A stretch of DNA of 39,157 nt, taken from assembly GCA_938017685.1 (NCBI GenBank), contig CALIIL010000153.1, forward strand, positions 1 through 39,157, in the 5' to 3' direction. How positions within the stretch are numbered: position 1 is the first letter of the stretch; every line of letters starts with the position of its first letter. Source of the stretch: an uncultured Chitinophagaceae bacterium. Lineage in GTDB: Bacteria > Bacteroidota > Bacteroidia > Chitinophagales > Chitinophagaceae. Below the pieces are notes generated by a model. It saw only the letters and a list, made by a program, of their open reading frames with translations, made no database searches and had not been told where the DNA came from. Shown here in pieces: positions 11,987 to 38,616 of this stretch. The translations under genes were made by a program, and so were the position numbers.

Positions 11987-12634
11987 ATGAAAAACATAAT
12001 TACTATTTTACTACTAAGCATTGTTGCAACCTTCAACCTTCAAGCGCAAGATGCTCAGGAAAGCGCCATAAGCATTTTAAAAGTAGACCAACCTTGCGTT
12101 ACGGCTAACTATGATGTAAGCTCTGATATTCTATCAACGGCTTGGGCAGCTGAGTTGGCTAAGTATGGCATAAAGAAAGGAAGTAAAGTAAAAGGAGGCT
12201 TTAGAAAATACAGTGGAGTAAATATACCGTCAATATCGGCTGATAAAATTGATATTTATTCTAAAATAAGCGGTAAAAAAGCAAACAGTACATTGGTTGT
12301 ATTGGTTTCTAAAGGATATGACAACTTTGTAAATAACGAGAAGTATCCTGAAATGGTCGCAGCAACCAAAAAAATGATGAACGAATTGGTCAATGGAACT
12401 GCAGTTGCTAAACTACAAGTGAATATTGAAAAACAAGAGAAAGTGGTTGCCAAAGCAGAGAAAACAGAAAAGAGTGTAATCAAAACGGGCGAAAGCTTAG
12501 CAGATGATATGAAGCGATTAGAAAAGAAAATTGCTGATAATAAAACAGCTCAAGAAAATGCAATGAAAGCATTAAAAGAAGAGCAGGCTAACTTAGCAGG
12601 ATTGAAAGAAAAGTTAGGATTAATGACTAAATAG
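11987..12634 (+). CDS. exported protein with C-terminal coiled coil
   Basis: I do not recognise a named family. The 215-residue product has a signal peptide (residues 1-20, cleavage LQA before QD). Residues about 25-130 form a mixed alpha/beta region containing VTANYDVSSDILSTAWAAEL and a NSTLVVLVSKGYDNF strand-loop. Residues about 135-213 are a long charged helix with heptad character (VNIEKQEKVVAKAEKTEKS and later DDMKRLEKKIADN), predicted coiled coil. It should be periplasmic or outer-membrane associated. It stands alone between the divergent flippase operon and a convergent RDD gene; TATCTTTA at 11963-11970 is a candidate -7 element. A strong terminator follows. Confidence 0.75.
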   Translation: MKNIITILLLSIVATFNLQAQDAQESAISILKVDQPCVTANYDVSSDILSTAWAAELAKYGIKKGSKVKGGFRKYSGVNIPSISADKIDIYSKISGKKANSTLVVLVSKGYDNFVNNEKYPEMVAATKKMMNELVNGTAVAKLQVNIEKQEKVVAKAEKTEKSVIKTGESLADDMKRLEKKIADNKTAQENAMKALKEEQANLAGLKEKLGLMTK

Positions 12635-13521: not shown

Positions 13522-14502
13522 ATGCGCGAAGGCAAGTTTATTGATAAAAATAAAGAACGCTGGCAGTCCTATATGGATGATGCTGAGGATGCCGATGAAT
13601 TGGCGGATCGATTTTCAAATCTCATTGATGATCTAGGCTATGCTAAGACTTTTTACCCTAAGAGTAAAACCACCACTTTTATAAATGCGCTATCGGCTAA
13701 GATGTTTCGTAACATTTATTACAAGCAAAAAAAAGAGCAAGGTCGTATGCTTCGCTTTTTTAAATATGAGTTGCCGCTAACATTTAGGAAGTATCATAAA
13801 GTATTTTTATTTACACTTATATTTTTTTCTCTCGTTGTCTTCATTGGTGTAATGAGTAGTATGAAGGATTACGATTTTATACGTTCAGTCTTGGGCGATG
13901 GTTATGTAGATATGACCGAAGAAAACATCAATAAAGGCGATCCTTTTGGTGTATATAAAGATGAGAACTCTTGGGAAATGTTTATTCGTATAGCCTTTAA
14001 TAATATTCGAGTAGCGCTATTGTGTATGGTTATGGGTTTGTTGGCAGGCGTGGGTTCCTTATATATGTTATTTGAGAATGGTTTAATGTTAGGCAGTTTT
14101 CAGTATATGTTTTTTGCTAAAGGTCTGGGCTGGCAATCAATCTTAGTGGTATGGATCCATGGTACGATTGAGATAGCCTCTATTGTTATTGCGGGCACTG
14201 CGGGTTTAATATTGGGTCGTGGTTTTCTTTTTCCGGGTAGTTTTACACGGATGGAATCTTTTAAACGTGCGGGCCTAGATGCCGCGCGTATTGCCGTAGG
14301 CTTAATACCCTTTTTTATAATTGCTGCCTTTTTAGAAGGTTATGTAACGCGCCTAACTAATATGCCTATCATTTTAAGTGTATTTATTTTATTTGCCTCG
14401 GCTTGTTTAATCACTTGGTACTTTGTTTTATATCCTATGTTGTTGCATCGAAGTGGTTTTTCTTTTGAGCAAAATAAATTAAAATTCCCAACAGAAAAAT
14501 GA
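13522..14502 (+). CDS. SpoIIM/DUF95 family integral membrane protein
   Basis: A 326-residue membrane protein of the stage II sporulation protein M family. The cytoplasmic N-terminal ~90 residues are helical and charged (KNKERWQSYMDDAEDADELA). Five or so hydrophobic segments follow: VFLFTLIFFSLVVFIGVM at about 95-112, VALLCMVMGLLAGVGSLYM, WIHGTIEIASIVIAGTAGLIL (the conserved H-G-x-x-E motif), IAVGLIPFFIIAAFLEG and a last helix ILSVFILFASACLITWYF. The organism need not sporulate; in Bacteroidota these genes travel with MoxR and DUF58 genes. It is first in a five-gene plus-strand operon and its stop overlaps the next start by ATGA. Confidence 0.88.
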   Translation: MREGKFIDKNKERWQSYMDDAEDADELADRFSNLIDDLGYAKTFYPKSKTTTFINALSAKMFRNIYYKQKKEQGRMLRFFKYELPLTFRKYHKVFLFTLIFFSLVVFIGVMSSMKDYDFIRSVLGDGYVDMTEENINKGDPFGVYKDENSWEMFIRIAFNNIRVALLCMVMGLLAGVGSLYMLFENGLMLGSFQYMFFAKGLGWQSILVVWIHGTIEIASIVIAGTAGLILGRGFLFPGSFTRMESFKRAGLDAARIAVGLIPFFIIAAFLEGYVTRLTNMPIILSVFILFASACLITWYFVLYPMLLHRSGFSFEQNKLKFPTEK

Positions 14503-15329
14503 GGCTCAGGTGCTACTTCATAGCAGTGTTGATGCTTGCTTTTTCTGTTGTAGGAAAGGCGCAAACAAATAATGAAGATTTGCTTCAAGACTTTCAAGAG
14601 ACTATTGATAGTATTAAGGATACAGAGGAAGTGAGTGCAGAAGAAGTTGGAGAGTTCTATGAAGAAGTATATGATGAGGATTATATAGATGATGAATATG
14701 ATGAGGATGAAGAATACGAAGAATACGCTCCAATAGATTATTACGACCAACGTAGGGTTGATCAAAAAAAGTGGTCGAAGTATAAAAAGGATAAGCGTTT
14801 TATTTATAAAATAAAACCAAAGAAAAAAAAGAAAGAGAAAAAGCCTTGGTCGCCCAATCTTTCTTTTTTGAATGGCGCGCTCTTTAAGTTTTTTCTATAT
14901 TTAGTTGTTGCCGGAGTCTTAGGTTACATCGTATTTCTGTTCTTTAAGAATAATGAATTTTCATTTAAAAGAAAAGGAAAATCTAATACTGAGAATGAGG
15001 AAATGCCTTGGGAGGAGGTTGAAAGTTTTGAAGATTGGGAGCTAGCATTACAAAAAGCAGAGCAGGATAAAGACTATAGACTAGCGACTAGAATATTGTA
15101 TTTGCAAAGTCTGCAAAAATTAAACAATCAATCGCTTATTGATTACAGTCAAGAGAAAACGAATTGGCACTATGTGCAAAAACTATTAGGCACAACTTAT
15201 CATGAACCATTTAAAACACTCACAACCTATTTTGATTACATCTGGTATGGTAATTATCATGTAGAAGAAGAAAGGTATAATGAAGTGAAGAGTAGTTTTT
15301 TAACCTTTAATAATACTGTATACGCATGA
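14499..15329 (+). CDS. DUF4129 domain membrane protein with charged periplasmic region
   Basis: The 276-residue protein has a signal peptide (residues 1-21, ending GKA before QT), a periplasmic stretch, one membrane helix (about 131-150, FFLYLVVAGVLGYIVFLFF) and a cytoplasmic C-terminal DUF4129 domain (YRLATRILYLQSLQKLNNQSLI, KTNWHYVQKL, FDYIWYGNY). The periplasmic part is sharply charge-segregated: residues about 40-80 are nearly all Asp/Glu/Tyr, and residues about 90-118 are Lys-rich. DUF4129 is a regular partner of MoxR/DUF58/DUF4350 genes; its role is unknown. Both ends overlap the neighbouring genes by ATGA, indicating translational coupling. Confidence 0.85.
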   Translation: MRLRCYFIAVLMLAFSVVGKAQTNNEDLLQDFQETIDSIKDTEEVSAEEVGEFYEEVYDEDYIDDEYDEDEEYEEYAPIDYYDQRRVDQKKWSKYKKDKRFIYKIKPKKKKKEKKPWSPNLSFLNGALFKFFLYLVVAGVLGYIVFLFFKNNEFSFKRKGKSNTENEEMPWEEVESFEDWELALQKAEQDKDYRLATRILYLQSLQKLNNQSLIDYSQEKTNWHYVQKLLGTTYHEPFKTLTTYFDYIWYGNYHVEEERYNEVKSSFLTFNNTVYA

Positions 15330-22786: not shown

Positions 22787-23728
22787 ATGAAAGACCAAGA
22801 TAGGAATCAAGATGAAGTAAGTAATTATCACGACTCCGTTCTTTTACATGAAAGTATCCAGGCATTAAATATTAATAAAAATGCTAACTATCTCGACGCC
22901 ACCTTTGGCGGTGGAGGTCATAGCAGAGCTATCCTTGATAAGCTCGAAAATGGAAAACTATTAGCTTTTGATCAAGATGATGACGCGGTGCGTAATCTTC
23001 CCAATCATGAACAACTAATTTTTGTTCGAGAGAACTTTCGGTACGCCGATCGTTTTGTTCGACTGCACAATATGCTGCCTTTGGGTGGCATCTTGGCCGA
23101 TTTTGGTGTGAGTTCACATCAATTTGATACGGCCGATCGTGGGTTTTCTATTCGCTTCGATGGCGCGCTTGATATGCGCATGGATACTCGGCAGGAACTA
23201 ACCGCCGCTCATGTATTGAACAGTTATGATGAGAGTGCACTTCACAAGCTCTTTGAACAATACGGACAAGTAACCAATGCAAAATCGCTCGCAAGGCACA
23301 TTGTTGCTTCAAGATTAAACGGCTCATTTGAAACGATAAATCATTTTATACAAACTATAAAACCATTTATCCGAGGAAAGGAAAATAAATACTTAGCTAA
23401 AGTATTTCAGGCCATAAGAATTGAAGTGAATGATGAGCTCAATGTAATTCGAGATTTATTGTTGGGGACTATTCCGCAATTAGCAATTGGTGGTCGAGTA
23501 GTAGTAATAACCTTTCATTCCTTAGAGGATCAGATAGTCAAAGAAGTATTTAAAAAATACAGTGAAGAAGAAATGACAGAAGCAGAAATGTTACTGGGTA
23601 GAAAAGAAAAAGAAGGAGAAGGGTTGAAAATAAAAATACTAAAACCGATTAAACCAAGCGCTGAAGAACTTCAAAGAAACAACCGCTCCCGGAGCGCAAA
23701 AATTAGATACGCTGAAAGAATTAGATAA
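22787..23728 (+). CDS. rsmH: 16S rRNA (cytosine-1402 N4)-methyltransferase RsmH
   Basis: RsmH (MraW) methylates C1402 of 16S rRNA in the ribosomal P site using SAM. The 313 residues are the usual size. Visible motifs are YHDSVLLHESIQAL at 14-27, the SAM-binding DATFGGGGHS at 37-46, DFGVSSHQFD followed by RGFSIRFDGALDMRMD, and the late VVVITFHSLEDQIVK and NNRSRSAKIRYAER. ATG 22787 is chosen; an out-of-frame ATG lies four bases upstream. The stop shares one base with the ftsL start (TAATG). Confidence 0.97.
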   Translation: MKDQDRNQDEVSNYHDSVLLHESIQALNINKNANYLDATFGGGGHSRAILDKLENGKLLAFDQDDDAVRNLPNHEQLIFVRENFRYADRFVRLHNMLPLGGILADFGVSSHQFDTADRGFSIRFDGALDMRMDTRQELTAAHVLNSYDESALHKLFEQYGQVTNAKSLARHIVASRLNGSFETINHFIQTIKPFIRGKENKYLAKVFQAIRIEVNDELNVIRDLLLGTIPQLAIGGRVVVITFHSLEDQIVKEVFKKYSEEEMTEAEMLLGRKEKEGEGLKIKILKPIKPSAEELQRNNRSRSAKIRYAERIR

Positions 23729-24051
23729 TGGCAAAAAATAAAAACTGGCAGAAAAAACTAGAGACCTTAGGGTTGGAAGGTTTGGTTAAGAATATCCCGA
23801 TGGTGTTCTTGATTATGTTATTTTTTATTTTAAACATTTTCGTAGGTCATTATACTGAGAGTGCCATTAAGGATTTGAATAGAAAGACAGCACAATTAAA
23901 ACAATTGCGTTGGCATTACATCAACGAGAAGTCGGAGTTGATGTTTATGACAAAAGAAAGTGAATTGGCAAAACGTGCGGTAAACCAAGGCTTGGATGTA
24001 TTGAACATGCCGCCGAGTAAAATAGAAATAAGCAAACCTTTAAGTAATTAA
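23728..24051 (+). CDS. ftsL: FtsL-like cell division protein
   Basis: A 107-residue bitopic membrane protein with a basic cytoplasmic N-terminus, one membrane helix at about 23-42 (NIPMVFLIMLFFILNIFVG) and a periplasmic helix with heptad character (about 44-85) as expected of FtsL. FtsL pairs with FtsB and FtsQ and activates FtsWI. Sequence similarity is low in this family, so the call rests on size, topology and position between rsmH and ftsI. The stop overlaps the ftsI start by one base (TAATG). Confidence 0.82.
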   Translation: MAKNKNWQKKLETLGLEGLVKNIPMVFLIMLFFILNIFVGHYTESAIKDLNRKTAQLKQLRWHYINEKSELMFMTKESELAKRAVNQGLDVLNMPPSKIEISKPLSN

Positions 24052-32463: not shown

Positions 32464-33815
32464 TCGATTTAAAGAACATATCGCAAGTGTATTTTATTGG
32501 TGCCGGCGGCATTGGGATGAGTGCTTTGGTGCGCTACTTTCATGCGAAGGGTTGTGTGGTAAATGGTTATGACAAAACACCCACGCGTCTGACGCGTGAG
32601 ATGGAAGCAGAGGGGATTGATATTCACTTTGAAGATGATCTTAATCAGTTGAATAAAGATGCGCAGCTTGTTGTGTATACTCCTGCCATTCCTGCTGATC
32701 ACAAAGAATTAAATTGGTATAGAGACAACAATTATACGGTGGTGAAGCGCTCTGATGTACTGCAAGCCATTACTGCTTCTCAGCAAGCAATATGCGTTTC
32801 AGGGACACATGGCAAGACGACCATTAGCTCAATGATTGCTTATTTATTGAGAGAGACGGGCTTTGGTTGTCAAGCATTCTTAGGCGGTATTGCTGCTAAT
32901 TATGATACCAATTATTGGAATACTTCTGATGATTGGTGTGTTGTGGAGGCAGATGAATATGATAGAAGTTTTTTAAAACTACATCCAAATATTTCTGTAG
33001 TAAGCTCCATTGATCCAGATCATTTAGATATCTATGGTACAGTTGAGGAAATGGAAAAGGCCTATTTCCAATTTATTAATAGTACAAAGGATGTACTGTT
33101 CTATAAGCATGGGTTAAAGCAAGCTAGTAACTTTAAGGTGCAAAAAGAGTATACCTATAGTGCCCAAAATGATAGCGCAAATTTTTACGCGCAAAATGTA
33201 ACAAGCAAGAATGGTTCATATCTATTTGAAGTGTGTATCCATGGAGAAGTATTGGGTGAGGCGCAATTAAATATGGGTGGTATGCACAATGTTGAGAACG
33301 CTATTGTTGCTTTAAGTATATGCCATCATTTAGAAATAGATATGCCAAAAGCTATGCAAGCATTGGCAGGATTTAAAGGCGTGCGCCGTCGTTTTGAGTA
33401 TGTTGTCAATAATGACAAAAGTGTTTATATCGATGATTATGCGCATCATCCCGAAGAAGTCTATCAATTGATAAAAAGTACTAATTCACTATTTAGAAAT
33501 AAAAAAGTGTCTGTTGTTTTTCAACCGCATTTATTTAGTCGTACCAAGGATTTAGCAGATGGCTTTGCCAAAAGTTTAGATGAAGCAGACGAAGTAATAC
33601 TCTTAGATATTTATCCAGCGCGCGAGTTGCCAATGGAGGGCGTTACAAGCGAGTTGATAAAAGATAAAATGCAAAATAAGAATGTACATATTTTATCCAA
33701 AGACGGAGTAATGGAGTGGGTGCAAAGAAGTAAGCCTGAGGTTTTAATTACAGCAGGTGCTGGAGATATAGATCAGATTGTAGAACCGTTAAAAAATATT
33801 ATTAATGAATATTAA
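32460..33815 (+). CDS. murC: UDP-MurNAc:L-alanine ligase MurC
   Basis: MurC adds the first amino acid of the stem peptide. The 451-residue protein has the N-terminal FIGAGGIGMSALVRYFHAKG (about 12-31), ATP loop GTHGKTT, EADEYDRSFL, SSIDPDHLDIYG, NMGGMHNVENA, GVRRRFEYV, DDYAHHPEEV and QPHLFSRTKDL in order. The start is GTG 32460, overlapping the murG stop by four bases, and its 3' end overlaps the ftsQ start by eleven bases, so the three are translationally coupled. Confidence 0.97.
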   Translation: MIDLKNISQVYFIGAGGIGMSALVRYFHAKGCVVNGYDKTPTRLTREMEAEGIDIHFEDDLNQLNKDAQLVVYTPAIPADHKELNWYRDNNYTVVKRSDVLQAITASQQAICVSGTHGKTTISSMIAYLLRETGFGCQAFLGGIAANYDTNYWNTSDDWCVVEADEYDRSFLKLHPNISVVSSIDPDHLDIYGTVEEMEKAYFQFINSTKDVLFYKHGLKQASNFKVQKEYTYSAQNDSANFYAQNVTSKNGSYLFEVCIHGEVLGEAQLNMGGMHNVENAIVALSICHHLEIDMPKAMQALAGFKGVRRRFEYVVNNDKSVYIDDYAHHPEEVYQLIKSTNSLFRNKKVSVVFQPHLFSRTKDLADGFAKSLDEADEVILLDIYPARELPMEGVTSELIKDKMQNKNVHILSKDGVMEWVQRSKPEVLITAGAGDIDQIVEPLKNIINEY

Positions 33816-34911
33816 AGTAAAAAACATATTGCGCAATGTTGGTTTCTTGCTGTCTGTGCCTATCATCATTCTTGCATTTGTATTTGCCCATCAGCAAGAC
33901 TTAAATGTTGTATGTGAGGATGTGCATGTAACCATCGATAATCCAGAAACAAACTTCTTGTCGACTAAACAAGTAAAGAATATTATCCTTGACCAAGGTG
34001 TTGTACTTAATGAAACAAAATTGAATTCTATAGATGTGCAATCAATAGAAGAGAAGCTCAGTGCGAATCCTTGGATTAATAAAGTAGAACTATTTATTGA
34101 TGCTAATAATACGATAAACGCACAGGTGCAGCAGCATGAGGTTGTTTTGCGCGTGCAGCGCACTGATAGTAGTTTCAATGGTTACTTTTTAGATAAAGAC
34201 GCGCGCGTTATTCCTTTGTCGCGTCAGTATTTCCCCTTGGTGCCAATTGTAACATCGGAGCGCTCATTAAAAGATGCTCAGTCTAAAAAAGATTTGGTTA
34301 AGCTAGCGCAGTTTATTGTGGCTGATACATTTTGGAATGCTGTAATTACACAGATAAATTATGACAAAAAAGGAGAGGTTGAACTAGTAAGTGTTATTGG
34401 AAATGCTGGTATTCGTTTTGGCGGAATGGAGGATATGGAAGATAAGTTTGAGCGCCTATTTCAATTTTATAAGAAAGGAATTACGCGCATTAACTGGAGT
34501 AATGTAAAAGAATTGGATGTGCGCTTTAAAAAGCAACTAGTATGTCGTCGTTTCCATAAAGAAGCATCGCTCGAAGAGCGCAAGGCGCCAATTATGTATA
34601 CCAAGCGTAAGAGTAAGCCAATAAAGCTTGATAAAAAGAAAAGAGTACTTACAGCAAGTGCCGCTCCGCTTAAGAGTAAAATGGTTAAAAAGGCTTCAAC
34701 GACTAAATCATCAAATAGTAATGTAGCTAAAAGTGAAAAGAAAAGTAGCCCTAAAAAAACGCTTGTTAAGTCTAAAAAGCCAAAGGAGAAAAAACAGCTT
34801 GAGGTAAAAAAAGCTAAGAAAGTAGAGAAGAAAAAAGTTGATCAACCAAAGCTCAAAAAGAAAAAACGAAAGGAAATAATCATAAATACAGAACCCACTA
34901 ACAAAAAATAA
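33805..34911 (+). CDS. ftsQ: divisome protein FtsQ with lysine-rich periplasmic tail
   Basis: FtsQ is a bitopic protein that scaffolds FtsL/B and FtsWI. One membrane helix at about 11-28 (VGFLLSVPIIILAFVFA) is followed by a POTRA domain (about 38-110, TNFLSTKQVKNIILDQGVV; LSANPWINKVELFIDANNTI) and a beta domain to about residue 245 (LDKDARVIPLS, FWNAVITQINYDKKGEVELV). The 368-residue length exceeds E. coli FtsQ (276) because of a tail of about 120 residues that contains about 40 lysines together with Ser, Thr and Pro and appears disordered. By topology this tail is periplasmic. The start overlaps murC by eleven bases; ftsA follows after nine bases. Confidence 0.9.
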   Translation: MNIKVKNILRNVGFLLSVPIIILAFVFAHQQDLNVVCEDVHVTIDNPETNFLSTKQVKNIILDQGVVLNETKLNSIDVQSIEEKLSANPWINKVELFIDANNTINAQVQQHEVVLRVQRTDSSFNGYFLDKDARVIPLSRQYFPLVPIVTSERSLKDAQSKKDLVKLAQFIVADTFWNAVITQINYDKKGEVELVSVIGNAGIRFGGMEDMEDKFERLFQFYKKGITRINWSNVKELDVRFKKQLVCRRFHKEASLEERKAPIMYTKRKSKPIKLDKKKRVLTASAAPLKSKMVKKASTTKSSNSNVAKSEKKSSPKKTLVKSKKPKEKKQLEVKKAKKVEKKKVDQPKLKKKKRKEIIINTEPTNKK

Positions 34912-34920
34912 TAAAATAAC

Positions 34921-36492
34921 ATGCAAGAACAGAACCCAATTATTGTAGGATTAGACATCGGAACAACTAAGATTGTAGCCATAGCCGGTCGCAAAACAAA
35001 ATATGGCAAAATAGAAATCCTTGGTCACGGATTTAGTAATAGTAGCGGTGTAAACCATGGTATGGTTTTAAATATTGATGAATGTAATAAGTGCATTGAT
35101 GCTGCTTTATTAGATTGTCAGGAAAAAAACCCTGACTTGAATATTAAGGAAGTGTATGTTGGTGTTGCAGGTCATCATATTAAAAGCTTGCAAACATCTG
35201 GAAAGCGCGTTATTCAAAACGAGGAAGAAGTTGTGTCGCGTAAGGATGTAGAATTATTGATTAAAGAACAATACAAAACATCCATTCATCCTGGTGATCA
35301 AATCATTGATGTGATTGCACAAGAGTTTATGGTAGATAATCATGGTCCATTTCTTGAAAAGGAAGTGGTAGGGATGAGTGCTACTGATTTACTCGCCAAC
35401 TTTCATATTATAACTGCCGATAAAGCAGCAATAAAAAATATTAATAGAGCCGTAACACGTTCTGAACTTTCAATCAAAGATTTTGAGTTGCAACCTTTAG
35501 CATCCGCTGCAGCTGTTATGAGCCCAGAAGATATTGAGATGGGTGTTGCCATTATTGACATTGGAGGAGGTACTACTGACTTAGCAGTATTCCATGATGG
35601 AATAATTAAGCATACAGCCGTTATTCCAAGAGCGGGGGTAAATATTACACAGGATATTAAAACTGGCTTGGGTGTATTGAAATCTCAAGCGGAATTAATG
35701 AAGAAAAAATTTGGTGTAGCATTAGCTGATGAAGTGAGTAGCAACACATTTATTTCTATTCCTAGTATTCGTGGTCATGCGCCTAAAGAAATTTCGGTAA
35801 AGAACTTGGCTAATATTATCCAAGCTCGCATGGAAGAAATACTAGAGCATGTACAACATCAATTGCGCCAATTGAACTTAGAGGATAAGTTACATGGTGG
35901 TGTGATTTTGACAGGAGGTGGTAGTCAATTAAAACATTTGCGCCAGCTAACAGAGTATAAGTTAAATATGGCAGCACGTATCGGTTTTCCTAATCAGCAT
36001 ATTGTTGGTGAGCGTGCTAAAGAATTGAACCAGCCAATGTTTGCGACTTGTCTTGGGTTAATCTTGAGAGGTTATGATGATGTTGAGAATAATCGTTTTG
36101 CGAGTTTCTCGGCTAACTCTATGCATGAAACAATGTCTTATACTTCCGAAGTTGTGGAGCAAAGCACAGATGATGCGCAGCAAGAAATTGCTACTCTTTT
36201 TGGCGAGTTAGAGCCAAAGACTGAAGCTGTTGAAGAAGTGAGTAGCGATATGGTGCAAGAGACAACTGCAGAAGAAGCAGCAGATCTTCAAGAAGAAATG
36301 GATGCACTGTTTCGTCCGCAAGGAGATCCTATTCCTGAAGAAATAGTTTCTGTAGATCATACCATAAAAGAAGAAGAGGAGCCTAAGCCAGTTATTCAAA
36401 AAAGAACGCTTGGGCTAACAAAAATATTTGGCGCTGTAAAGAATGGAGTGCTCAAAGTTTTTGAAGATGGCGATGATATAGAACTAAAATAA
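34921..36492 (+). CDS. ftsA: cell division protein FtsA
   Basis: FtsA is an actin-fold ATPase that anchors FtsZ to the membrane. Core motifs: phosphate-1 GLDIGTTKIVAIAG at 9-22, the 1C-type insertion, the phosphate-2 IIDIGGGTTDLAVF near 216-229, and the adenosine motif VILTGGGSQLKHL. The core ends near residue 385. An acidic linker of about 110 residues (EEVSSDMVQETTAEEAADLQ, DALF) follows, and the C-terminus (about 497-517, LTKIFGAVKNGVLKVFED) is an amphipathic helix suited to membrane binding, as in E. coli. At 523 residues it is about 100 longer than E. coli FtsA (420). It begins ten bases after ftsQ and is separated from ftsZ by 51 bases. Confidence 0.96.
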   Translation: MQEQNPIIVGLDIGTTKIVAIAGRKTKYGKIEILGHGFSNSSGVNHGMVLNIDECNKCIDAALLDCQEKNPDLNIKEVYVGVAGHHIKSLQTSGKRVIQNEEEVVSRKDVELLIKEQYKTSIHPGDQIIDVIAQEFMVDNHGPFLEKEVVGMSATDLLANFHIITADKAAIKNINRAVTRSELSIKDFELQPLASAAAVMSPEDIEMGVAIIDIGGGTTDLAVFHDGIIKHTAVIPRAGVNITQDIKTGLGVLKSQAELMKKKFGVALADEVSSNTFISIPSIRGHAPKEISVKNLANIIQARMEEILEHVQHQLRQLNLEDKLHGGVILTGGGSQLKHLRQLTEYKLNMAARIGFPNQHIVGERAKELNQPMFATCLGLILRGYDDVENNRFASFSANSMHETMSYTSEVVEQSTDDAQQEIATLFGELEPKTEAVEEVSSDMVQETTAEEAADLQEEMDALFRPQGDPIPEEIVSVDHTIKEEEEPKPVIQKRTLGLTKIFGAVKNGVLKVFEDGDDIELK

Positions 36493-36543: not shown

Positions 36544-38616
36544 ATGATCGAATTCGAATTACCACAAAAAAGTGAAAATATTATCAAAGTCGTAGGCGTT
36601 GGCGGCGGCGGAGGTAATGCAGTTAACCACATGTATTCTCTTGGCATTGATGAAGTAGACTTTATCGTATGCAATACGGATATGAAAGCACTCTCAGAGA
36701 GCGCGGTGCCTATTAAAGTACAATTAGGGCCGGAGCTTACTCAGGGGCTTGGTGCTGGAGCAAAACCTGATGTTGGGCGTGAGGCTACAACCGAAAGTTT
36801 AGATGAAATAAAAAAAGCATTTGGAGATAATACACAAATGGTATTTGTAACTGCCGGTATGGGTGGTGGAACAGGCACAGGTGGTGCACCAATTGTGGCT
36901 AAGTTAGCCAAAGAATCGGGCGCATTAACTGTTGGTATTGTTACGACTCCATTTTCTTATGAAGGGAAAAAGCGTAAGCAATATGCGCAAGATGGTATTG
37001 ATGAATTAAAGAAAAATGTAGATACCTTGCTTATTATTTCTAATGATAAAGTGCGTCAGCATTTTGGCAATGTAGCTATCTCTGAAGCTTTTTGTAAGGC
37101 AGATGATATATTGGCAACGGCGGCAAAATGTATTACAGATGTAATTTCAAGTAAGGGACATATTATTGTGGATTTTGCCGATGTATGTACAGTTATGCGC
37201 GAAGGTGGTAGAGCGATTTTGGGTAATGCAAAAGCAGGTGGTGAGAACCGTGCAGCTATTGCGGTAGAAGAAGCGTTGAGTTCACCTTTATTAAATGATA
37301 ATAGTATTCAAGGTGCTAAATGGATTTTGTTAAATGTAAATTCTTCTCAAGGAGATACTGAGCATACCTTAGATGAAATGGAATTGATCCAAGCTTATGT
37401 ACAGGAAAAAGCTGGTGACGATTGTGACTTGATCCTAGGTATGGGTTATGATGAAGACTTAGGTGATAATATTGGTATTACCATTATTGCTACGGGATTT
37501 AAAGAAAATGAAACAGAAGAAGCGTTTAGAAAGTCCAACCTTTTTGAAAAAGACAAAGTCTTTGTTTCATTAGAAGAAGAAGCTAAGAAAGTGGAGCATA
37601 CGCCTAAAAATATTTCTGATAAAGTACCGCAATTGGGCAAAGCAGATATTGATTATACACCAACAACATTTCAAGTAGAGCCATTAAATGCGACACCCAT
37701 TACGGCTTTAGGTTTGCGTCCAGAGGATGAAGTAATTCCAGCTTTTGAAGAGAGCTTTATGGAAGATGAAGTGCCAGCTGTTACAAGCTTAGGTGCTTTT
37801 ATTGAAGAAAGTGTTCCTGAAATGGAAGAGCTAGCTGGAGATGAAGGTGCTGAGTGTGAAATTATTTCTTTTGAGAAAACAGAAGAAATAAGAAAGGACT
37901 TGATGCAGACTTATGAAATGGAAAACAATATTGATACGGATGAAACAGTAGCAGAGGAGGAAGCTGTTGTTTCTTTTGAAATGAATATTGAAGATGAGAT
38001 TGAAGAACAAATGACAGCTGAGCCTACCGTTGAAGCGCCAGTTGTTGAAGAACCAACTGTTGAAGCGCCAGTATTTACTACCACTGAAATGGAAACGCCT
38101 AGTGAGAATAATTGGGAAGATACTGAGGTTGGAGAAACGATTGAATTATTTGTAAAGGATGATGTATCAGAAGTAGAAGAAGTGACCTTTGATACACCAC
38201 AATTTGAAGCGCCAGTTGTTGCTGCAAGTAATGAAATGAATGCTGCTGAAAAAAGTGATGATGAAGTAACTGATGAATATGTTTCGATTAAAGGAATAAC
38301 CTTAGCGCGTAAAAAAGGTAGCCGAATGCTTACGGATTATGAGTTAGAGCAAGAAGCAAATTTTGAATTACAGAAACGTGCTTTTGATGAACGTGCTTCT
38401 AAACTTCGTTCTATGAGTTATGATGTAAATAAATTGGAAGGACAGCAAGAAGATGAAGAAATTCCTGCCTACGTGCGTCGCAATCAAGCATTAGATAATC
38501 ATGCTCATTCTTCGGATGAAGAGATAAGTGGTACTTCTATAACAGAAGATAAAAATTCGTTGAACTCCAATGTGAGTACATTAAATAATTTCCTAAATGG
38601 AAATAACCCAGATTAA
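36544..38616 (+). CDS. ftsZ: cell division GTPase FtsZ with a long C-terminal linker
   Basis: FtsZ polymerises into the cytokinetic ring. The tubulin-like GTPase core (about 1-325) has VVGVGGGGGNAVNHM at 17-31, the signature GGGTGTG at 107-113, FSYEGKKR and the T7-loop region (NGDCDLILGMGYDED). After the core comes an acidic, low-complexity linker of about 300 residues (most of 335-638) that includes short Val-Glu-Ala-Pro repeats. The conserved FtsA-binding peptide is visible as EIPAYVRR at about 639-646, but it is followed by 44 more residues ending LNNFLNGNNPD, a tail that resembles the FLHDNVD end known in flavobacterial FtsZ. Total length is 690 residues against 383 in E. coli. A 51-base gap precedes it and a terminator follows. 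Confidence 0.97.
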   Translation: MIEFELPQKSENIIKVVGVGGGGGNAVNHMYSLGIDEVDFIVCNTDMKALSESAVPIKVQLGPELTQGLGAGAKPDVGREATTESLDEIKKAFGDNTQMVFVTAGMGGGTGTGGAPIVAKLAKESGALTVGIVTTPFSYEGKKRKQYAQDGIDELKKNVDTLLIISNDKVRQHFGNVAISEAFCKADDILATAAKCITDVISSKGHIIVDFADVCTVMREGGRAILGNAKAGGENRAAIAVEEALSSPLLNDNSIQGAKWILLNVNSSQGDTEHTLDEMELIQAYVQEKAGDDCDLILGMGYDEDLGDNIGITIIATGFKENETEEAFRKSNLFEKDKVFVSLEEEAKKVEHTPKNISDKVPQLGKADIDYTPTTFQVEPLNATPITALGLRPEDEVIPAFEESFMEDEVPAVTSLGAFIEESVPEMEELAGDEGAECEIISFEKTEEIRKDLMQTYEMENNIDTDETVAEEEAVVSFEMNIEDEIEEQMTAEPTVEAPVVEEPTVEAPVFTTTEMETPSENNWEDTEVGETIELFVKDDVSEVEEVTFDTPQFEAPVVAASNEMNAAEKSDDEVTDEYVSIKGITLARKKGSRMLTDYELEQEANFELQKRAFDERASKLRSMSYDVNKLEGQQEDEEIPAYVRRNQALDNHAHSSDEEISGTSITEDKNSLNSNVSTLNNFLNGNNPD
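38030..38220 (+). repeat. short coding repeats in the ftsZ linker
   Basis: TTGAAGCGCCAGTTGTT occurs at 38030-38046 and again at 38204-38220, with a shorter copy TTGAAGCGCCAGT at 38060-38072. They encode the V-E-A-P-V / F-E-A-P-V units of the linker and may drive length change by slippage or recombination. Confidence 0.6.

Follow-up and report, generated by a model that had tools for sequence, protein, structure and literature searches.

The question raised by this locus is what a long, lysine-rich extension contributes to the cell division protein FtsQ. The window, meaning the whole stretch of DNA that was analysed, is one contig of 39,157 bp from a Bacteroidota MAG of 2.78 Mb in 178 contigs. 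Its ORF 33805-34911 is FtsQ by gene order, a POTRA_1 match just short of the cut-off and fold. The gene lies between murC and ftsA in the order ftsW, murG, murC, ftsQ, ftsA, ftsZ, which is that of an ordinary dcw cluster (ftsW and murG were named from their translations). The Pfam POTRA_1 match (PF08478) scores 22.5 bits (E 1.4e-4), 0.5 bit below the curated cut-off of 23, and no NCBIfam profile matched this FtsQ up to E 0.1. The features used below, in window coordinates, are these:

33805..34911, + strand: ftsQ coding sequence, 368 aa plus stop (ORF, Pfam POTRA_1, fold)
33811..33903, + strand: N-terminal membrane helix, residues 3-33, modelled as helical; charge indicates N-in/C-out
33904..34140, + strand: POTRA domain, residues 34-112 (Pfam, fold comparison)
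34141..34563, + strand: FtsQ beta domain, residues 113-253 (model, fold comparison)
34564..34653, + strand: juxta-domain tail stretch, residues 254-283; the sequon region in PKAVM-type tails, with none here
34654..34869, + strand: Lys-rich linker, residues 284-355, modelled with low confidence
34870..34908, + strand: tip KEIIINTEPTNKK, residues 356-368, conserved in the genus sister
34876-34887, + strand: IIIN in the tip, residues 358-361, predicted beta strand
23728..24051, + strand: FtsL-like ORF of 107 aa, presumed from its position and one hydrophobic stretch to be FtsL, the partner of FtsQ and FtsB
34921..36492, + strand: ftsA, neighbour and anchor for the FtsQ survey

The AlphaFold model of the window FtsQ has a mean pLDDT of 80, and the folded part is mostly above 90. 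Its best structure match is 8hhf_Q, from an FtsB-FtsL-FtsQ complex (Z 14.6, rmsd 5.7, 232 residues aligned), followed in order by 6h9o, 5z2w, 2vh1, 2vh2 and 8bh1; further matches, at Z 9.3 and lower, are mostly BamA-type POTRA domains. The model, the PDB comparison and the charge pattern give the architecture of FtsQ/DivIB, in which a single N-in membrane helix precedes a POTRA and a beta domain, and the protein shares its fold, operon position and FtsB partner with E. coli and P. aeruginosa FtsQ (2vh1, 8bh1; FtsQ-FtsB complexes 6h9o, 8hhf). With E. coli FtsQ (2vh1_A, Z 13.1), model residues 38-253 match chain residues 58-260. The structured part thus ends at about residue 253, the equivalent of E. 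coli residue 260, and the extension therefore begins at about nucleotide 34564, 9 nt inside the start given in an earlier note on this DNA. That note had placed the tail beyond the end of E. coli FtsQ, and the greater length is supported: E. coli FtsQ, at 276 aa, has about 16 residues beyond its fold, whereas the window protein has 115, which are Lys-rich and carry a conserved tip. The last beta-domain strand (residues 244-249) is taken, from its position, as the putative counterpart of the FtsB-receiving strand in solved complexes. The same strand contains Cys247 (34543-34545). In other families, 56 of 80 usable FtsQs have Cys at this position (the pattern did not read 6 of them), but 71 of 77 Chitinophagaceae rows have Ala or Gly; the window keeps Cys.

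The segment 34555-34911 consists of 118 codons and the stop codon TAA, which had been counted in the 119 residues of the earlier note. As that note had described, it is rich in lysine and in AAA/AAG codons: the last 118 residues of FtsQ contain 40 Lys (23 AAA, 17 AAG), 4 Arg, 9 Glu and 2 Asp, for a net charge of +33, along with 12 Ser, 7 Thr and 7 Pro. Residues 1-250 contain 20 Lys and have a net charge of +2. Across all six frames of the window, the runner-up open 119-codon stretches hold 23 Lys; they occur jointly in ORFs 14499-15329 and 11987-12634, the former having an Asp/Glu-rich stretch followed by a Lys-rich one. An assembly error is unlikely because a tail of this kind, with an almost identical end, is present in a second MAG of the genus (L003; the FtsQ ends read at L003 and L185 agree). 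Charge opposite to that of the FtsQ tail is found on the cytoplasmic side, in the acidic C-terminal region of FtsZ (36544-38616; 359 residues, net -65) and in acidic residues 391-523 of FtsA (34921-36492; net -21).

The C-terminal part of FtsQ in general lies outside the inner membrane, and the N-terminal charge pattern of the window protein (+3 in residues 1-11, -3 in residues 29-60) places its tail there as well. The periplasmic location proposed earlier is thus supported by this pattern, by the FtsQ fold and by extracytoplasmic sequons in the tails of many relatives. The proposal of a polycationic, disordered tail also stands, with disorder probable from the model: pLDDT is about 40-60 over residues 251-350 and about 60 in the last 18 residues. 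Within the tip, AlphaFold draws IIIN as a strand at a pLDDT of only about 60, and the model of the sister FtsQ likewise has a tip strand, at residues 410-413. These strands count as fewer than two independent observations because both models share one alignment set of 38 rows (the window and 37 of 48 loci read), just two of which have such tails. A search of solved structures with the tail sequence gave no match at E up to 1, and PHROGs gave none up to E 0.01.

To what extent is this tail a property of the family? Matches were found in 282 of 294 genomes, about 155 of them among the matches listed. From those listed by E-value we extracted 78 Chitinophagaceae rows, window included, of which 77 were usable (L032 runs off its contig); having been taken by E-value, these rows are biased towards FtsQs that resemble that of the window. 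Another 10 family genomes came from an even draw of the order; 2 of them were also among the E-value rows, and the 8 additional rows brought the set to 85 FtsQs from 68 genera. Tail length was counted as the residues after the end of the homologous match. In this sample, drawn from the matches listed and the even draw, tails of at least 60 aa occur in 73 of the 85 FtsQs (57 of 68 genera) and tails of at least 30 residues in 82; the remaining 12 are shorter than 60 aa, and the even draw taken separately gives 7 of 10 at 60 aa or more. The 73 long tails have a median length of 98 and a median Lys share of 0.17, and 71 are net positive. Tails are net positive in 65 and cores in 19 of 67 FtsQs (paired Wilcoxon p 3e-12, related species not being independent). 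The window tail extends 116 aa past the end of the homologous match; its Lys share of 0.34 is the highest of the sampled family, and its net charge (+32, counted from residue 253) is the third highest. The longest tail, of 266 aa in L012 (Chitinophagaceae, genus g94), has KPAAQP-like repeats and a net charge of +36 and ends in KYIYQGN. An exchange of Lys and Arg driven by GC content was rejected, as GC3 did not clearly correlate with Lys/(Lys+Arg) (Spearman -0.15, p 0.23, 67 rows).

In other families of the order and class, a long cationic tail was found in 3 of 80 usable FtsQs (82 rows less L118 and L119, which were wrong ORFs), and in the rest of the phylum in 0 of 20. Among the 48 loci read for the alignment set (L211 in the wrong frame; L233 and L234 left out), the tail occurred solely in the genus sister. 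A long positive tail is the rule in Chitinophagaceae and rare elsewhere, as judged from these sequences. The three exceptions, L131 and L161 of one family (f8) and L168 of another (f23), have Lys-rich tails with neither a PKAVM nor a KYIY tip and may have arisen separately from those of Chitinophagaceae. In a quick tree built on the folded domains, an SH-aLRT of 99 separates the 85 family rows from 24 outgroup rows; among the family rows, tail presence changes 11 times, chiefly on terminal branches. The outgroup is uninformative on tails because its 24 rows, from the 80 usable ones, were labelled short without measuring and do not include L131, L161 or L168. We read the pattern as suggesting an early gain followed by losses, although the change count cannot tell gain from loss. 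Some lineages do without the tail, as the 12 short FtsQs and the 11 changes indicate.

The comparison of relatives that the earlier note had called for found the tail in close relatives and across the family; the family-wide distribution and the conserved C-terminal tip were both missed in that note. In many tails a motif begins 5-15 residues from the C-terminus. It is of three types: PKAVM with a few residues behind it, found in many genera; KYIY or a near variant, in a second clade; and EIII or PIII, in the window clade. The window, with neither PKAVM nor KYIY, shares the EIII/PIII variant with L003, L004 and L006, and endings in this clade are REIIINTEP or KEIIINTEP, KPIIISSEP and APIIIKNNQ. 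EIII/PIII may be equivalent to PKAVM and KYIY, to judge by position and hydrophobic pattern. Of the 85 sampled FtsQs, 42 (38 of 68 genera) have PKAVM or KYIY in their last 30 residues, compared with a mean of 0.065 and at most 2 in shuffles. With no motif chosen beforehand, PKAVM is the 5-mer common to the largest number of genera, 25 of 68, and in shuffled tails the figure is at most 6. A wider pattern applied to the 73 long tails gave 35 KAVM, 14 KYxY and 4 III, and 20 tails had no recognised tip even then.

Shared descent inflates these motif counts, yet neighbouring linker sequence is not retained and the tip codons differ synonymously. All synonymous Pro, Lys, Ala and Val codons occur among 29 PKAVM-type tips, and because they vary, the tip is selected as protein. 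Between the window and its sister, whose FtsQ is 53% identical over the fold, shared positions number 11 of 15 in the tip (15 residues only), 31 of 70 in the linker and 109 of 222 in the fold. Elsewhere in its own genome the tip pattern has one 2-mismatch site besides ftsQ, and a control pattern gave 2. Braun lipoprotein has a conserved C-terminal Lys, and a covalent anchor of that kind is unlikely here: a C-terminal Lys is present in 13 of the 73 long tails, although the window tail itself ends in Lys.

The earlier note had also suggested that the tail could be a site for modification. According to PMC12871550, the D-[ST]-hydrophobic sequon is the motif of O-glycosylation in Bacteroidota, a system whose substrates are non-cytoplasmic proteins. 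We counted D-[ST]-[AILVMT] within 50 residues of the domain and found it in 34 of 35 PKAVM-type tails (59 sequons), against a mean of 6.6 tails and at most 14 in shuffles. In the first 50 residues, 7 of 14 KYxY tails have a sequon (shuffles mean 2.5, at most 8), as do 1 of 4 III tails and 11 of 20 tip-less tails. In PKAVM-type tails the sequons form clusters, most of them 5-15 or 25-35 residues beyond the domain (L020, L026, L041, L043 and others). The window tail contains no D[ST][LIVTASM] (the core has DSS at residues 121-123); PKAVM-type tails share the sequon of Bacteroidota O-glycoproteins, and for them a glycosylated collar on a division protein is possible. Tail glycosylation is a lead, since the cores of PKAVM-type FtsQs also have sequons (29 of 32) and DS could cap a helix. 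O-glycosylated cell division proteins are mentioned, but not named, for P. gingivalis and P. intermedia in PMC8729774 and PMC10897501.

Taken with these observations, the arrangement of the protein suggests how the tail may work. It would be a periplasmic cationic tether, probably disordered, that was added to FtsQ in Chitinophagaceae and that springs from the end of the beta domain, next to the strand onto which FtsB adds in solved complexes. The Lys-rich linker would hold this end of FtsQ near an anionic surface, of wall or membrane, at the septum, and the beta-prone tip would add as a strand onto a partner in the periplasmic division machine, with the three tip types playing the same role and septal wall synthesis being affected. 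At about 100 residues, a linker that is charged and disordered can reach across several nanometres, and this reach, the position of the tail directly behind the final strand of the beta domain and the retention of FtsB all point to a tether that keeps a docking motif near both the wall and the septal complex. For FtsWIQBL of P. aeruginosa, PMC7614612 describes an FtsQ sheet extended by an FtsB strand and the last FtsL strand. We put the probability of a cationic tether with a docking tip near the FtsQ-FtsB-FtsL sheet at roughly 0.5. A more specific form is put forward tentatively, as the less probable of the two: a two-part FtsQ module, not known from model divisomes, in which a cationic tether, probably O-glycosylated in one clade, is joined to a strand-forming tip that captures a partner or gates the FtsQ-FtsB-FtsL sheet.

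An unlikely variation is that the tip bends round to add one more strand to FtsQ itself, or to the FtsQ-FtsB-FtsL sheet, and serves as a lid or switch within the molecule, the linker being only a flexible loop that allows it to reach. In the single-chain models of both the window and its sister, the tip is the sole strand of the tail, and the strand it pairs with must belong to that chain; by eye its letters resemble the C-terminal strand of FtsB (EDVFVYD and the like). However, the tip is modelled with low confidence, and a self-docking tip has no need of a long charged linker. FtsB of the window genome (PF04977, 49.6 bits, contig C151) has the C-terminus NEDVFVYDTVLVK, a terminal strand by analogy; 28 family genomes were read by eye, window included and both tailed and tail-less, and all 28 keep this strand (L264 was mis-extracted). 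The tip is therefore no substitute for FtsB, and the reading that it replaces FtsB was rejected. We are similarly doubtful of an electrostatic anchor without sequence specificity, in which the tail would stick to peptidoglycan, lipid II or membrane lipids, and charge and length would matter but not the tip. Positive charge in nearly all long tails, although their linkers are hardly alignable, speaks for such an anchor, but PKAVM is common to far more genera than any other tail 5-mer, and some PKAVM tails are close to neutral (L035 net +2, L053 net +1).

It is less probable still that the tail is a weakly constrained product of repeat or low-complexity drift tolerated in the periplasm. Lengths from 2 to 266 aa, the repeated changes in presence, the similar tails in two other families and the long tails with no recognised tip would fit drift; the constancy of the charge sign and the recurrence of PKAVM across genera do not, and because many relatives keep a small conserved tip we regard the tail as a working tether and not as junk. 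A signal at the mRNA or DNA level, in which A-rich codons cause programmed slippage or form an element before ftsA, we consider very improbable. The window tail does contain A-runs of 5-7, and the longest runs in the tails of six relatives are of 6-8, but the slippage raised in the earlier note is not supported: a -1 or +1 shift after any of five A-runs of 6-7 (excluding the run at 34903 and runs of 5) meets a stop within 1-15 codons, and the synonymous variation of the tip codons also speaks against such a signal. The minus-strand ORF 34711-34926 (71 aa) was rejected as an overlapping gene: it is a Phe/Leu-rich mirror of the Lys codons with nothing seen in its favour, and a second gene need not be invoked.

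A cationic tether with a docking tip has partial parallels in known systems. TonB/TolA-type segments that span the periplasm are Lys/Pro/Ala-rich, flexible cationic spacers whose distal end bears an interaction element; the FtsQ tail resembles them as a cationic periplasmic spacer with a putative interaction element at its tip, and no homology is claimed. The C-terminal gamma region of Gram-positive DivIB is likewise an unstructured tail after the beta domain, but the window tail is about three times longer and strongly cationic and has a terminal motif conserved in many relatives. For E. coli, PMC3152878 states that the non-structured last 30-40 residues of FtsQ/DivIB are a determinant for FtsB/FtsL binding; for S. 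pneumoniae DivIB, it states that the last 35 residues are unchanged in NMR upon FtsL/DivIC binding. S. aureus DivIB, an FtsQ homologue, is reported in PMC9652317 to be a peptidoglycan-binding protein, and this wall binding by the outer part of the protein is a possible likeness for the window FtsQ. FtsQ itself is known, and the conserved tip of many Chitinophagaceae tails is new here; among the open-licence papers listed on FtsQ/DivIB and on Bacteroidota O-glycosylation, none was seen to describe such an FtsQ tail.

FtsQ joins FtsB and FtsL to the rest of the divisome, and its structures are known mostly from E. coli, Pseudomonas and a few Gram-positives. The tether and tip are a defined, removable part with which to ask how a large Bacteroidota family places and switches on septal wall synthesis, and whether charge holds division proteins to the wall. 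If the tether-and-tip reading is true, a core regulator of septal wall synthesis would have a lineage-specific arm with which to reach out.
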